In this document: positions 53,316 through 57,932 of the stretch, piece after piece
Numbering within the stretch: position 1 is the first letter of the stretch
How the letters are laid out: the number at the start of each line of letters is the position of its first letter
Assembly (NCBI RefSeq): GCF_024623785.1
Contig: NZ_JANKBZ010000002.1
Location: 434,001 to 498,000 of the forward strand
Direction of reading: 5' to 3'
Source: Archangium lipolyticum
GTDB taxonomy: Bacteria > Myxococcota > Myxococcia > Myxococcales > Myxococcaceae
DNA: 64,000 nucleotides
Notes under the pieces: generated by a model
Told to the model about the DNA's origin: nothing
Database searches by the model: none
What the model saw: only the letters and a program-made list of their open reading frames with translations
Made by a program: the position numbers and the translations under genes

Positions 53316-53380
53316 GGCGGTAGGGGGGCCGCCCTCGGCGTCAGGGCCCTGGCGTGCACACCGTCAGACGGAGACACGCC

Positions 53381-53872
53381 ATGGAACTCGTCCTGTTCAT
53401 CGGCCTGCAGGGCTCGGGCAAGAGCAGCTTCTTCCGGGAGCGCTTCGCGGCCACGCACGTGCACGTGAGCAAGGACCTGTGGCCCAACGCGCGCAGGCGC
53501 GAGGCCCGGCAGCGCAGGCTCATCGCGCAGGCGCTGGCGGAGGGGCGCCCGGTGGTGGTGGACAACACGAACCCGCTCGTCGAGGAGCGGGAGCCGCTCA
53601 TCGCGATCGCCCGGGAGCGCGGGGCGCGGGTGGTGGGCTACGTCTTCGAGTCGGACCTGAAGGCGTGCCTGGAGCGCAACGCGGGGCGCGTGGGGCGGTC
53701 GAGGGTGCCGGAGAAGGCGCTCCACATCACGTGGCGGAAGTTGAAGTGGCCTTCGTACACCGAGGGGTTCGATGCGTTGTTCCACGTGCGGCTGGCCCCC
53801 GAGGGTGGCTTCCACGTGAGGGAATGGAGGGAGGGAGATGAATCCAAACCAGTTCGAAGCCCGGATGCGTGA
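53381..53872 (+). CDS. P-loop kinase, polynucleotide-kinase-like
   Basis: 163 residues, the size of a minimal P-loop kinase. Walker A is FIGLQGSGKSSFF at the N-terminus; VSKDLWPNARRREARQRRLI and VVVDNTNPLVEEREPLI match the acceptor-side and Walker B region of polynucleotide 5'-kinase (PNKP-like) proteins; a lid with GRSRVPEKAL lies near 105-115. The 5'-phosphate acceptor is probably a nucleic acid end, but small-molecule kinases of the same fold cannot be excluded. The last 35 bases overlap the Thg1-like gene, implying coupled translation. Confidence 0.82.
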   Translation: MELVLFIGLQGSGKSSFFRERFAATHVHVSKDLWPNARRREARQRRLIAQALAEGRPVVVDNTNPLVEEREPLIAIARERGARVVGYVFESDLKACLERNAGRVGRSRVPEKALHITWRKLKWPSYTEGFDALFHVRLAPEGGFHVREWREGDESKPVRSPDA

Positions 53873-54617
53873 GGGCGAGTTCTTCCACTCGCTGCGGCTG
53901 CTGCGCGGGGCGTGGTGCGTGCTGCGGGTGGACGGGCGGGGCTTCTCGCGCTTCACGGAGGCGCGTTACGAGAAGCCCTTCGATGCCACGCTGCACCAGC
54001 AGATGGTGCGCACGGCCTCGGCGCTGCTGGAGGAGCTGCAGGGCATCTACGCGTACACGGAGAGCGATGAGATTTCGGTCCTCTTCCGGCCGGAGTGGTC
54101 GCTCTTCGATCGCGAGGTGGAGAAGCTGGTGTCCATCTCGGCGGGAGTGGCGAGCGCCACCTTCACGCACGCGGCGGGAGTGCCGGCCGTGTTCGACAGC
54201 CGGGTGTGGATGGGGGCCAGCGAGAACGCGGTGGTGGACTACTTCCGCTGGAGACAGGCGGACGCGGCCCGCTGCGCGCTGCACGGCTGGTGCTACTGGA
54301 CGCTGCGCAAGGAAGGCCAGAGCGTGGCGAGCGCCTCGCGGGAGCTGCACGGCAAGTCGGTGGGCTTCAAGAACGAGCTGCTCTTCCAGAGAGGAATCAA
54401 CTTCAACGAGCTGCCCCTCTGGCAGCGGCGGGGCACGGGCATCTCCTGGGAGGAGTACGAGAAGGAGGGAGAGGATCCGCGCACGGGCCGGAAGGTGAGC
54501 ACGCTGCGCCGCCGGCTGCGAGTGGACGAGTCCCTGCCGATGAAGGAGGAGTACGACGCCTACATCCGCGAGCGCATGAGCGCGACTCCCTCTCCCTCTG
54601 GGAGAGGGCCGGGGTGA
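53838..54617 (+). CDS. Thg1-like protein (tRNA 3'-5' polymerase/guanylyltransferase family)
   Basis: 259 residues. LRVDGRGFSRFT (Asp32) and YAYTESDEISVLF (Asp77, Glu78) are the two metal-binding motifs of the Thg1 palm, and KSVGFKNELLFQRGINFNEL is the downstream conserved block. Bacterial Thg1-like proteins add nucleotides to RNA 5' ends in the 3'-5' direction, repairing 5'-truncated tRNAs; Myxococcus has a studied member. The overlapping upstream kinase could supply or process 5' ends. The start has GGAGGGAG upstream. The last ten residues are encoded by a REP-like palindrome (54588-54608), so the original stop may have been lost. Confidence 0.92.
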   Translation: MNPNQFEARMREGEFFHSLRLLRGAWCVLRVDGRGFSRFTEARYEKPFDATLHQQMVRTASALLEELQGIYAYTESDEISVLFRPEWSLFDREVEKLVSISAGVASATFTHAAGVPAVFDSRVWMGASENAVVDYFRWRQADAARCALHGWCYWTLRKEGQSVASASRELHGKSVGFKNELLFQRGINFNELPLWQRRGTGISWEEYEKEGEDPRTGRKVSTLRRRLRVDESLPMKEEYDAYIRERMSATPSPSGRGPG

Positions 54618-56145: not shown

Positions 56146-57099
56146 TTGAATCCGTTGGACTGGAGTGGGACGCAGTTCCTGCTGGCCTACGTGCCCTACC
56201 TCGTGGGCATGTGGATCGCCGCGAAGCTGTGGCAGCGCTCGTTGAACCAGCCCTCGTCGGAGCCGGGCAGCACCGAGCTGAGGCTCGACCCCTATCTGGT
56301 GGCGGTGCTGGATCATCGCAGGGCGGCCGTCAACGCGGCGCTGGCCGCGCTCGTGCACGCGGGGGCGTTGCGCTTCGAGGAGGGCGAGCTGAAGGTGGAG
56401 GGCCCGCCACCGGCGAGCGCATCACCCTTCGAGCGCGCCGTCCACGCCGCGGTGTCGGGGAAGGTGGAGAGCGTGGGAGACATCGAGGAGGCCGTGGATG
56501 AACAGCTCGACTCGATGGAAGAATCCCTCTCCCGCCGTGGCTTCCTGATGGAGCACGAGCAGGCCGTCCAGTACAGGCGCTACCCCATGGCCCTCTTCTT
56601 CGGCGCGGGCCTGGGCCTGGGCCTGCTGAAGATGTTCGTCGGGATCGTCCGGGACCGGCCGGTGGCCTTCCTCGTGCTGCTGCTCGCGTTCGGAGCGGTG
56701 CTCGGATTCATGACCCTGTGGTCGGTCCCCCGCCGCACCCGGCGCGGAGACAGTGCGTTGAAGCTGCTCCGGTTGCAGAACTCGGCGCTGAGCATGACGT
56801 CGGCCACCGAGAGCGCGTGGCAGACGCTGAGTGCCTCGAACGTCGCCATGGGGGTGGCCCTCTTCGGCACGGGAATGCTGATGACGGCGGGGATGGGGGG
56901 CCTGCACAGCTACCTGATGCCTCCGGCCGGCGGTGGAGGGGGCGGCGACGACGGCACGGACATCACCGGCGGCAGCAGTGACTTCGCCGACAGTGGTGGC
57001 AGCGACTCTTCTGGAGACAGCGGCAGCAGTTGTGGTGGGGGTGGTGACAGCGGCGGCGGTGGGGGTTGTGGCGGTTGTGGTGGAGGTGGTGGGGATTGA
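56146..57099 (+). CDS. TIGR04222-type membrane protein with Gly/Ser/Cys-rich tail
   Basis: 317 residues from TTG 56146 (GGAGGG five to six bases upstream). A first membrane span (FLLAYVPYLVGMWIAAKLW) precedes a cytoplasmic helical domain (LRLDPYLVAVLDHRRAAVNA, ...AVDEQLDSMEESLSRRGF), then two more spans (ALFFGAGLGLGLLKMFVGIV; FLVLLLAFGAVLGFM). After a further span the last 55 residues are almost only Gly, Ser and Asp with three Cys (DSGSSCGGGGDSGGGGGCGG). This matches my memory of TIGR04222 membrane proteins, which neighbour DUF692 genes. The stop overlaps the next start (TTGA). The tail is a candidate substrate of the DUF692 enzyme. Confidence 0.8.
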   Translation: MNPLDWSGTQFLLAYVPYLVGMWIAAKLWQRSLNQPSSEPGSTELRLDPYLVAVLDHRRAAVNAALAALVHAGALRFEEGELKVEGPPPASASPFERAVHAAVSGKVESVGDIEEAVDEQLDSMEESLSRRGFLMEHEQAVQYRRYPMALFFGAGLGLGLLKMFVGIVRDRPVAFLVLLLAFGAVLGFMTLWSVPRRTRRGDSALKLLRLQNSALSMTSATESAWQTLSASNVAMGVALFGTGMLMTAGMGGLHSYLMPPAGGGGGGDDGTDITGGSSDFADSGGSDSSGDSGSSCGGGGDSGGGGGCGGCGGGGGD

Positions 57100-57932
57100 A
57101 GTGGCCGACGGGCGTGGGGCTGGGCTGGCGCAGACAGCTCGCGCACTACATCGACGAAGCGGAAGGGCTGGGCTTCGTGGAGGTGCTGGCCGAGCACCTG
57201 AGCCCCACGGGACCGCTCCCGGTGCCGCTGGTCCGCCTGCGGGAGCGGGGCGTGCCGGTGGTGCTGCATGCGGTGTCCCTGGGGCTGGGGAGCGCGGAGC
57301 CTCCGGAGCAGCGGAGGTTGGACTGGCTGGCGCGGATGGCCGAGCGGGTGGGCGCGGTGTGCGTGAGCGAGCACCTGTGCTTCGTACGCGCGGGAGGCCG
57401 GGAGTCGGGCCACCTGCTGCCGCTGCCGCGCAACGAGCGGATGCTGGAGGTGCTGGCGGAGAACGTGCGCCAGGCCGAGGCGGCGCTGCCGGTGCCCCTG
57501 GCGCTGGAGAACGTGGCGAGCCTCTTCGATTGGCCGGAGCCGGCCCTGTCCGAGGCGCAATGGCTGGTGGGCGTGCTGGAGCGCACGGGGGCGCGGCTGC
57601 TGCTGGACGTGGCCAACCTGCACGCCAATGCCCTCAACCTCGGGACGGATGCGGCGGCGGTGCTGGCGGCGGTGCCTCGCGGGCGGCTGGCGTACGTGCA
57701 CGTGGCCGGGGGTGTGAAGCGCGGTGGCCTGTACCACGACACCCACGCGCACGCGGTGCCCGAGGGGCCCCTGGCCTTGTTGGAAGCGCTCGTGGCGCGC
57801 GTGGGGCCCGTGCCGACGCTGCTCGAGCGGGATGACCGTTTCCCTCCGCCAGCGGAGCTGACCGCCGAGCTGGAGGGCATCCGGGCGGCACTGGCGCGCG
57901 GGAGGGCGAGCTGGGAGGCGCGGGCGGCCTGA
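57096..57932 (+). CDS. DUF692 (MbnB/TglH-like) metalloenzyme
   Basis: 278 residues from a TTG that overlaps the upstream stop (TTGA). The TIM-barrel metal ligands of the family can be placed: VVLHAVSLGLGS, VSEHLCFVRA, LALENVASLFDWP, LLLDVANLHANALNLG, YVHVAGG and YHDTHAHAVP. Studied members (MbnB, TglH) use two or three iron ions to oxidise Cys residues of peptides, usually with a partner protein (MbnC/TglI type). No such partner is seen here; the partner or substrate could be the Cys-rich membrane protein encoded upstream. Function beyond the family is inference. Confidence 0.9.
   Translation: MKWPTGVGLGWRRQLAHYIDEAEGLGFVEVLAEHLSPTGPLPVPLVRLRERGVPVVLHAVSLGLGSAEPPEQRRLDWLARMAERVGAVCVSEHLCFVRAGGRESGHLLPLPRNERMLEVLAENVRQAEAALPVPLALENVASLFDWPEPALSEAQWLVGVLERTGARLLLDVANLHANALNLGTDAAAVLAAVPRGRLAYVHVAGGVKRGGLYHDTHAHAVPEGPLALLEALVARVGPVPTLLERDDRFPPPAELTAELEGIRAALARGRASWEARAA

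Follow-up and report, generated by a model that had tools for sequence, protein, structure and literature searches.

A cysteine-tailed TIGR04222 membrane protein and its MNIO enzyme in Archangium lipolyticum: a probable modification system split over two loci

Archangium lipolyticum is a soil bacterium. The stretch of its genome analysed here, called the window, comprises 64,000 nucleotides (contig NZ_JANKBZ010000002.1, positions 434,001 to 498,000). Near its end, two overlapping genes on the forward strand encode a membrane protein of the TIGR04222 family, here TIG-A, and an enzyme of the DUF692/MNIO family. The features of the pair, in window coordinates, are as follows.

56146..57099, + strand: TIGR04222 membrane protein (TIG-A), 317 aa, TTG start, stop included; assigned by NCBIfam TIGR04222 and modelled with three long helices and a small soluble domain.
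56167..56244, + strand: membrane helix 1 of TIG-A (residues 8-33), predicted N-outside from the model and from the family charges (N-terminus negative, C-terminal flank positive).
56290..56538, + strand: small soluble helix/strand domain of TIG-A (residues 49-131), predicted cytoplasmic from the secondary structure of the model and the positive flanking charges.
56554..56721, + strand: membrane hairpin of TIG-A, helices 2 and 3 (residues 137-168 and 174-192), from the model and hydropathy.
56929..57096, + strand: disordered Gly/Ser/Asp tail of TIG-A (residues 262-317) with C296, C308 and C311, from pLDDT; a terminal CxxC is present in all 28 paired Myxococcota copies, the window's included.
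57067..57078, + strand: terminal CGGC motif (C308, C311), conserved and the proposed target; kept in the congener G065, where C296 is lost.
57096..57932, + strand: DUF692/MNIO enzyme, 278 aa, TTG start overlapping the upstream stop; assigned by PF05114, with nine TglH-type iron ligands.

TIG-A scores 145.1 bits against NCBIfam TIGR04222 (cut-off 43) and the enzyme 257 bits against PF05114 (cut-off 25). The stop of TIG-A (GAT TGA) overlaps the TTG start of the MNIO gene in the sequence TTGA, which bears out the coupling, coordinates included, described in an earlier note on this DNA. A possible start codon overlaps the stop in 26 of the 28 paired TIGR04222 copies from Myxococcota. At 57079-57099, the glycine codons of the tail's final residues may also act as a ribosome-binding site for the MNIO gene. 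Conservation of the GGGGD that follows CGGC may thus reflect a constraint on the DNA, comprising this site and the TTG of the MNIO, rather than on the protein, and we have rested no conclusion on it.

The structural model of TIG-A (mean pLDDT 72.8) shows three long helices and no continuous fourth. From secondary structure alone we read the soluble domain as winged-helix-like; a Foldseek search of the PDB with the whole model gave no match at E 0.001. The tail has pLDDT values below 50 at residues 262-310 and 312-317. The unstructured, three-cysteine tail described in the earlier note therefore holds as regards disorder and cysteine number, but C296 is absent from the nearest relative and only the terminal CGGC is conserved.

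The window MNIO carries the iron ligands H58, H93, E138, D171, N174, H202, D215, H217 and E244, corresponding to H71, H107, E151, D184, N187, H216, D229, H231 and E258 of TglH (PMC10880893). Those from E138 onwards align directly with TglH, and H58 and H93 align with histidines of 3bww. Across 92 aligned TIGR04222-associated MNIOs, the window's among them, eight of the ligands are identical throughout, and E244 is present in 91, with a gap in the remaining sequence. The best NCBIfam profile is MNIO_BufB, at a sub-threshold 197.4 bits against an equivalog cut-off of 310, which sets the enzyme apart from bufferin maturases. The A. lipolyticum genome (G000) contains seven MNIO matches, six of which were placed in a tree (a short match on contig C52 was left out). 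The window enzyme alone falls within the TIGR04222-associated group, which separates from 11 other MNIOs with support 98 in a quick tree that carries a long-branch warning. MNIOs that score like the window's from five genomes without a TIGR04222 match (L079-L083), and another MNIO of G117 (L084), lie outside this group. On contig C43 of A. lipolyticum, two divergent MNIO-like genes stand in tandem (L088 3974-6830) and form long branches in the tree.

Conservation of the tail cysteines in homologues with DUF692 neighbours was the check proposed in the earlier note. We examined 195 Myxococcota genomes, of which 32 contain TIGR04222 above cut-off and 126 an MNIO, and from them 40 regions, 39 around TIGR04222 matches and one around another A. 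lipolyticum MNIO. A CxxC motif lies within a few residues of the terminus in every one of the 28 TIGR04222 copies directly before an MNIO, the window's included, and in 12 of the 16 remaining copies or fragments (tandem, lone, contig-end or broken). A sample spread evenly over the Micromonospora phylum yielded few matches, and 200 genomes from the order of Micromonospora chalcea were used in its place; 70 are above the TIGR04222 cut-off and 64 have an MNIO, and 92 regions gave 120 TIGR04222 copies. Two or more tail cysteines occur in all 59 copies directly adjacent to an MNIO, in 16 of 25 tandem copies within MNIO loci, in 7 of 27 copies whose genome has an MNIO only elsewhere, and in 1 of 9 copies from genomes without an MNIO match. 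Adjacent copies (59 with and 0 without a Cys tail) thus differ from non-adjacent ones (8 with and 27 without, that is 8 of 35) with a Fisher p of 9e-17, the contig-edge row L119 having been dropped and the 25 tandem copies left out. Corrected for ancestry, with contig-end and short rows left out, the association comes down to about three concordant independent pairs with nearly no opposite ones and is not significant (median p 0.25), and we therefore do not call it proven. For directly adjacent copies, the idea of a conserved Cys tail survived the check.

The context of the cysteines is also uniform. In Myxococcota MNIO loci 103 of 133 tail cysteines are followed by Gly and 132 by Gly or Ser; in 61 adjacent copies elsewhere the counts are 246 and 288 of 292.

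Tail cysteines and enzyme can nevertheless occur apart, as seen in genomes that have Cys tails without the enzyme and in one TIGR04222 copy without tail Cys near an MNIO. Four genomes (G056, G197, G199 and G525) encode Cys-tailed copies and gave neither an MNIO nor a partner match; G197 and G199 are MAGs, and G056, 98% complete, has a TIGR04222 with six tail Cys (L072 5156-6148). The TIGR04222 frame of a further genome (G163) contains a stop, the genome's MNIO match is on another contig only, and no partner matched. Ten TIGR04222 copies of MNIO loci, tandem copies within 6 kb, have fewer than two tail Cys. In L193 (652-4111, G327) and L192 (1236-3784, G306), a single reading frame upstream of TIGR04222 matches both MNIO and partner; L193's TIGR04222, about 1 kb from that frame, is the copy without tail Cys, and L192's has many. 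The link between TIGR04222 Cys tails and MNIO is, as judged from these sequences, strong yet not absolute.

These exceptions lend some weight to a different reading, in which the tail cysteines stay unmodified and either bind metal or pair in disulfides, some other molecule is the substrate of the MNIO and its partner, and TIGR04222 anchors the enzyme complex in the membrane or acts as its scaffold. Both the Cys tails in genomes without MNIO and partner matches and the Cys-less tandem copies in MNIO loci would fit it. It does not explain why every directly adjacent copy has cysteines, in Myxococcota and in the order of M. chalcea alike, and the two overlapping window genes leave no room between them for another Cys peptide; we consider it unlikely. 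The tail as an MNIO substrate, proposed in the earlier note, is plausible on the strength of the adjacent copies and weakened by the same exceptions.

Two groups of unusual tails were seen in passing. In L061 (4148-8305, G093) four tandem TIGR04222 genes precede one MNIO, and one of the four lacks a Cys tail altogether. Lone TIGR04222 paralogues without tail Cys, most of them ending in ...ARR, are found in L126, L130, L138, L139, L142-L144, L150, L151, L153 and L155, eleven in all, whose actinomycete genomes also encode a Cys-tailed copy with an MNIO; in a twelfth case, L137, the MNIO is on another contig. The twelve are probably one lineage.

In 26 of the 28 paired Myxococcota cases the locus contains a third gene, whose product is mostly about 150-170 aa long; L074 is counted among them by a short partial match. 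The same gene is present in 58 of 59 paired cases and in none of 36 non-adjacent cases in the order of M. chalcea. No Pfam or NCBIfam family matched five of these proteins above cut-off. A search of PDB sequences with a profile from their alignment gave nothing up to E 10, and only fold comparison was informative. The fold was modelled on the A. lansinium homologue (mean pLDDT 79), which is 47% identical to the A. lipolyticum protein. Foldseek ranked TglI, NGO1945 and MbnC first to third (E 0.011 to 0.2; probability 1.00, 0.85 and 0.85), and the first six VIA-align rows were all MNIO partners at Z 8.3-6.3, with the next row at 4.4; a Z below 8, or below about 13 for helical proteins, may mean just a common arrangement. 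NGO1945 is a typical MNIO partner according to Antoine et al. (PMC12452194). The scores are modest, and in identifying the third protein as an MNIO partner we give weight to the fact that all the top structures are such partners.

At the window locus no partner homologue was found, in agreement with the earlier note, which had seen no MbnC/TglI-type partner nearby. When the partner alignment was run against the whole genome, with 150 of 475 first-look candidates scored, a single copy was found, on a different contig (C56); it shares 35-49% identity with eight partners found at other loci. Among six Archangium genomes (150 of 430-480 first-look candidates scored in each), a single partner match was obtained in each of the five with TIGR04222, and none in the sixth, which has no TIGR04222 match.

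The partner on contig C56 directly follows a second TIGR04222 gene. A. lipolyticum thus has two such genes, TIG-A in the window and TIG-B on C56 (L039 7064-8497). TIG-B is also Cys-tailed, ending in ...GGGCGGGGCGGCS, and has no MNIO beside it; the congener G065 has the same arrangement (L052 5409-6797), its only partner copy found likewise following the second TIGR04222 gene. The window and G065 are the only paired Myxococcota loci that lack a partner. The window copy clusters with three loci from its genus that have all three genes, so that the window pair most simply lost its partner or left it behind. Between A. lipolyticum and G065, dN/dS is 0.25 for the MNIO, 0.20 for the partner, 0.41 for TIG-A and 0.42 for TIG-B (the last over 253 codons), values indicating purifying selection on each of the four between the two species. 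One MNIO and one partner thus apparently act in trans on two membrane proteins; that the partner encoded on C56 fits the window MNIO is what we infer from these data.

The missing neighbour could also mean that TIGR04222 is substrate and partner in one, as the earlier note had it. The absence of a partner gene from the window and G065 loci would agree with this, and another DUF692 enzyme has been mentioned with a transmembrane partner protein (PMC10880893). A separate partner is present in nearly all other paired loci, though (26 of 28 and 58 of 59), and both exceptional Myxococcota genomes have one copy in trans, in A. lipolyticum beside the second TIGR04222 gene; we have set this part of the note aside as very improbable. 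For a partner function within TIG-A, with its soluble domain binding the peptide, the structural comparison (no PDB match at E 0.001) speaks neither way. Hardly more probable is a decaying window locus, with its partner lost and an MNIO that no longer acts. The gap beside the MNIO would be expected in that case, and among the 40 Myxococcota regions the genes flanking the pair are found beside it only in the window and G065. Decay is at odds with the dN/dS of 0.25 and the complete iron ligands of the MNIO, and with a state common to two species.

Among the flanking genes, a Thg1-like gene (tRNA-His guanylyltransferase, PF04446/PF14413) adjoins an AAA_33 kinase-like gene in the window (53354-54617), and the Thg1 gene is likewise close to the pair in G065.

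Where the tail lies bears on how it could be modified. In 157-160 homologues the net charge per 10 residues is -0.77 at the N-terminus, +0.82 after helix 1, +0.99 before helix 2 and +1.78 after helix 3; in the short loop between helices 2 and 3 it is +0.31 (152 rows). The flank charges place the soluble domain in the cytoplasm, and with three membrane helices the tail is on the same side. We thus favour a probably cytoplasmic tail, contrary to Antoine et al., who locate TIGR04222 tails in the periplasm (PMC12452194); charges and model favour this side and are not decisive.

The published topology would require the segment before the tail, here called LFG, to form a fourth membrane helix, so that the tail would be modified first and then moved to the periplasm. 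A hydropathy of 1.6 is reached in the LFG segment by 52 of 157 members, far fewer than for the other helices (137 of 146, 142 of 152 and 148 of 152), and the TIG-A model has short broken helices there. In the related DUF2207 proteins, moreover, the Gly/Ser-rich C-terminus is intracellular by their authors' prediction (PMC10457818). In TIG-A itself, however, this segment equals helix 1 in hydropathy (1.49 vs 1.47), and we have for this reason given more weight to an exported tail, which we regard as a genuine possibility, if not the one we prefer.

Taken together, we think it rather likely that the window pair belongs to a TIGR04222-MNIO modification system split over two loci. The sequences supply complete MNIO ligands, membership of the TIGR04222-associated group, the CGGC tail, a partner gene with most pairs, and a partner beside the second TIGR04222. 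The window MNIO would bind the partner encoded in trans on C56, and the complex would oxidise Cys-Gly units in both TIGR04222 tails. MNIO relatives convert Cys, in Cys-Gly settings among others, to 5-thiooxazoles linked to copper detoxification, and one of them, FonBC, prefers Cys-Gly (PMC12668002); by guess from these relatives the product may be a 5-thiooxazole, as with other MNIOs in Cys-Gly motifs, and the outcome a membrane-tethered metal ligand, perhaps for copper. The tail, if cytoplasmic as seems probable, could undergo modification in place after membrane insertion. A more tentative extension, which we offer as possible but doubtful, is a RiPP-like system that neither releases nor exports its product: MNIO and partner, at the inner membrane face, would convert the CGGC tail to a tethered metal ligand, with a single enzyme and a single partner, encoded at two loci, serving two TIGR04222 substrates in trans in this Archangium lineage.

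The MNIO substrates with assigned chemistry in the literature cited here are peptides, so a modified integral-membrane tail would extend this chemistry to in-place modification of proteins. The split locus is a natural experiment. It leads one to expect a single MNIO and a single partner serving two substrates in trans, and it identifies the four genes that a reconstitution would need. With the window pair alone, lacking the C56 partner, reconstitution might fail and be misread as a negative result.

The earlier note had seen in the pair a new use of DUF692 chemistry. Novelty of this kind is not supported, as Antoine et al. (2025) have already proposed subsets of TIGR04222 proteins as MNIO substrates, TIGR04222 making up 40% of more than 1,000 signal-less Cys proteins whose genes precede those of MNIOs (PMC12452194). 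Among open-licence PMC papers from 2025 on, this was the only one found to treat MNIO and TIGR04222 together, and our literature search found no experiment on the modification of any TIGR04222 protein. The tail-as-substrate prediction is hence already in print; added here are a partner encoded in trans, the finding that most paired loci contain one, and an argument on topology.

The TIGR04222-MNIO-PME-type 2 clusters of that paper are the closest known systems. Like them, the window has a TIGR04222 with C-proximal Cys directly before an MNIO, and the genome encodes a partner with the predicted TglI/MbnC/NGO1945 fold; the C56 partner and four homologues gave no match to DUF2063, the signature of PME-type 1. 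Unlike in such a cluster, the window's partner is at another locus, beside the second TIGR04222, although the published clusters, too, do not in every case have a partner in the same locus. The paper reports PME-type 2 partners for at least 10% of the full set of TIGR04222 clusters, whereas our frequencies (26 of 28 and 58 of 59) refer to paired cases. The two accounts also differ in the side of the tail, inside being favoured here and outside there (PMC12452194).

TglHI and MbnBC share with the window system the enzyme family, the iron ligands and the predicted partner fold, but their substrates are small peptides and not the tail of a membrane protein. Bufferins and captophorins, which are 5-thiooxazole copper peptides, resemble it in having an MNIO with a partner and Cys-Gly motifs, and MNIO_BufB is the best, if sub-threshold, profile of the window enzyme. 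They are set apart by small precursors, by Sec signal peptides and by partners of the DUF2063 (PME-type 1) kind (PMC12452194, PMC12668002), TIG-A being a 317-aa membrane protein and not a small Cys-rich precursor. DUF2207 (PF20990) matches the membrane core of TIG-A weakly (E 6e-5, 23.2 bits, below the cut-off of 33) and also has a Gly/Ser-rich C-terminus, but differs in its large extracellular N-terminal region (PMC10457818).

Additional N-terminal regions occur within TIGR04222 as well. In genomes without an MNIO match, one a Fimbriimonas MAG (L096 4431-5888) and one a Planctomycetota MAG (L098 3873-5630), the TIGR04222 protein has an extra N-terminal soluble domain and an additional hydrophobic stretch; this domain, for which no Pfam family was named, contains a DEVWHTHL-like motif.
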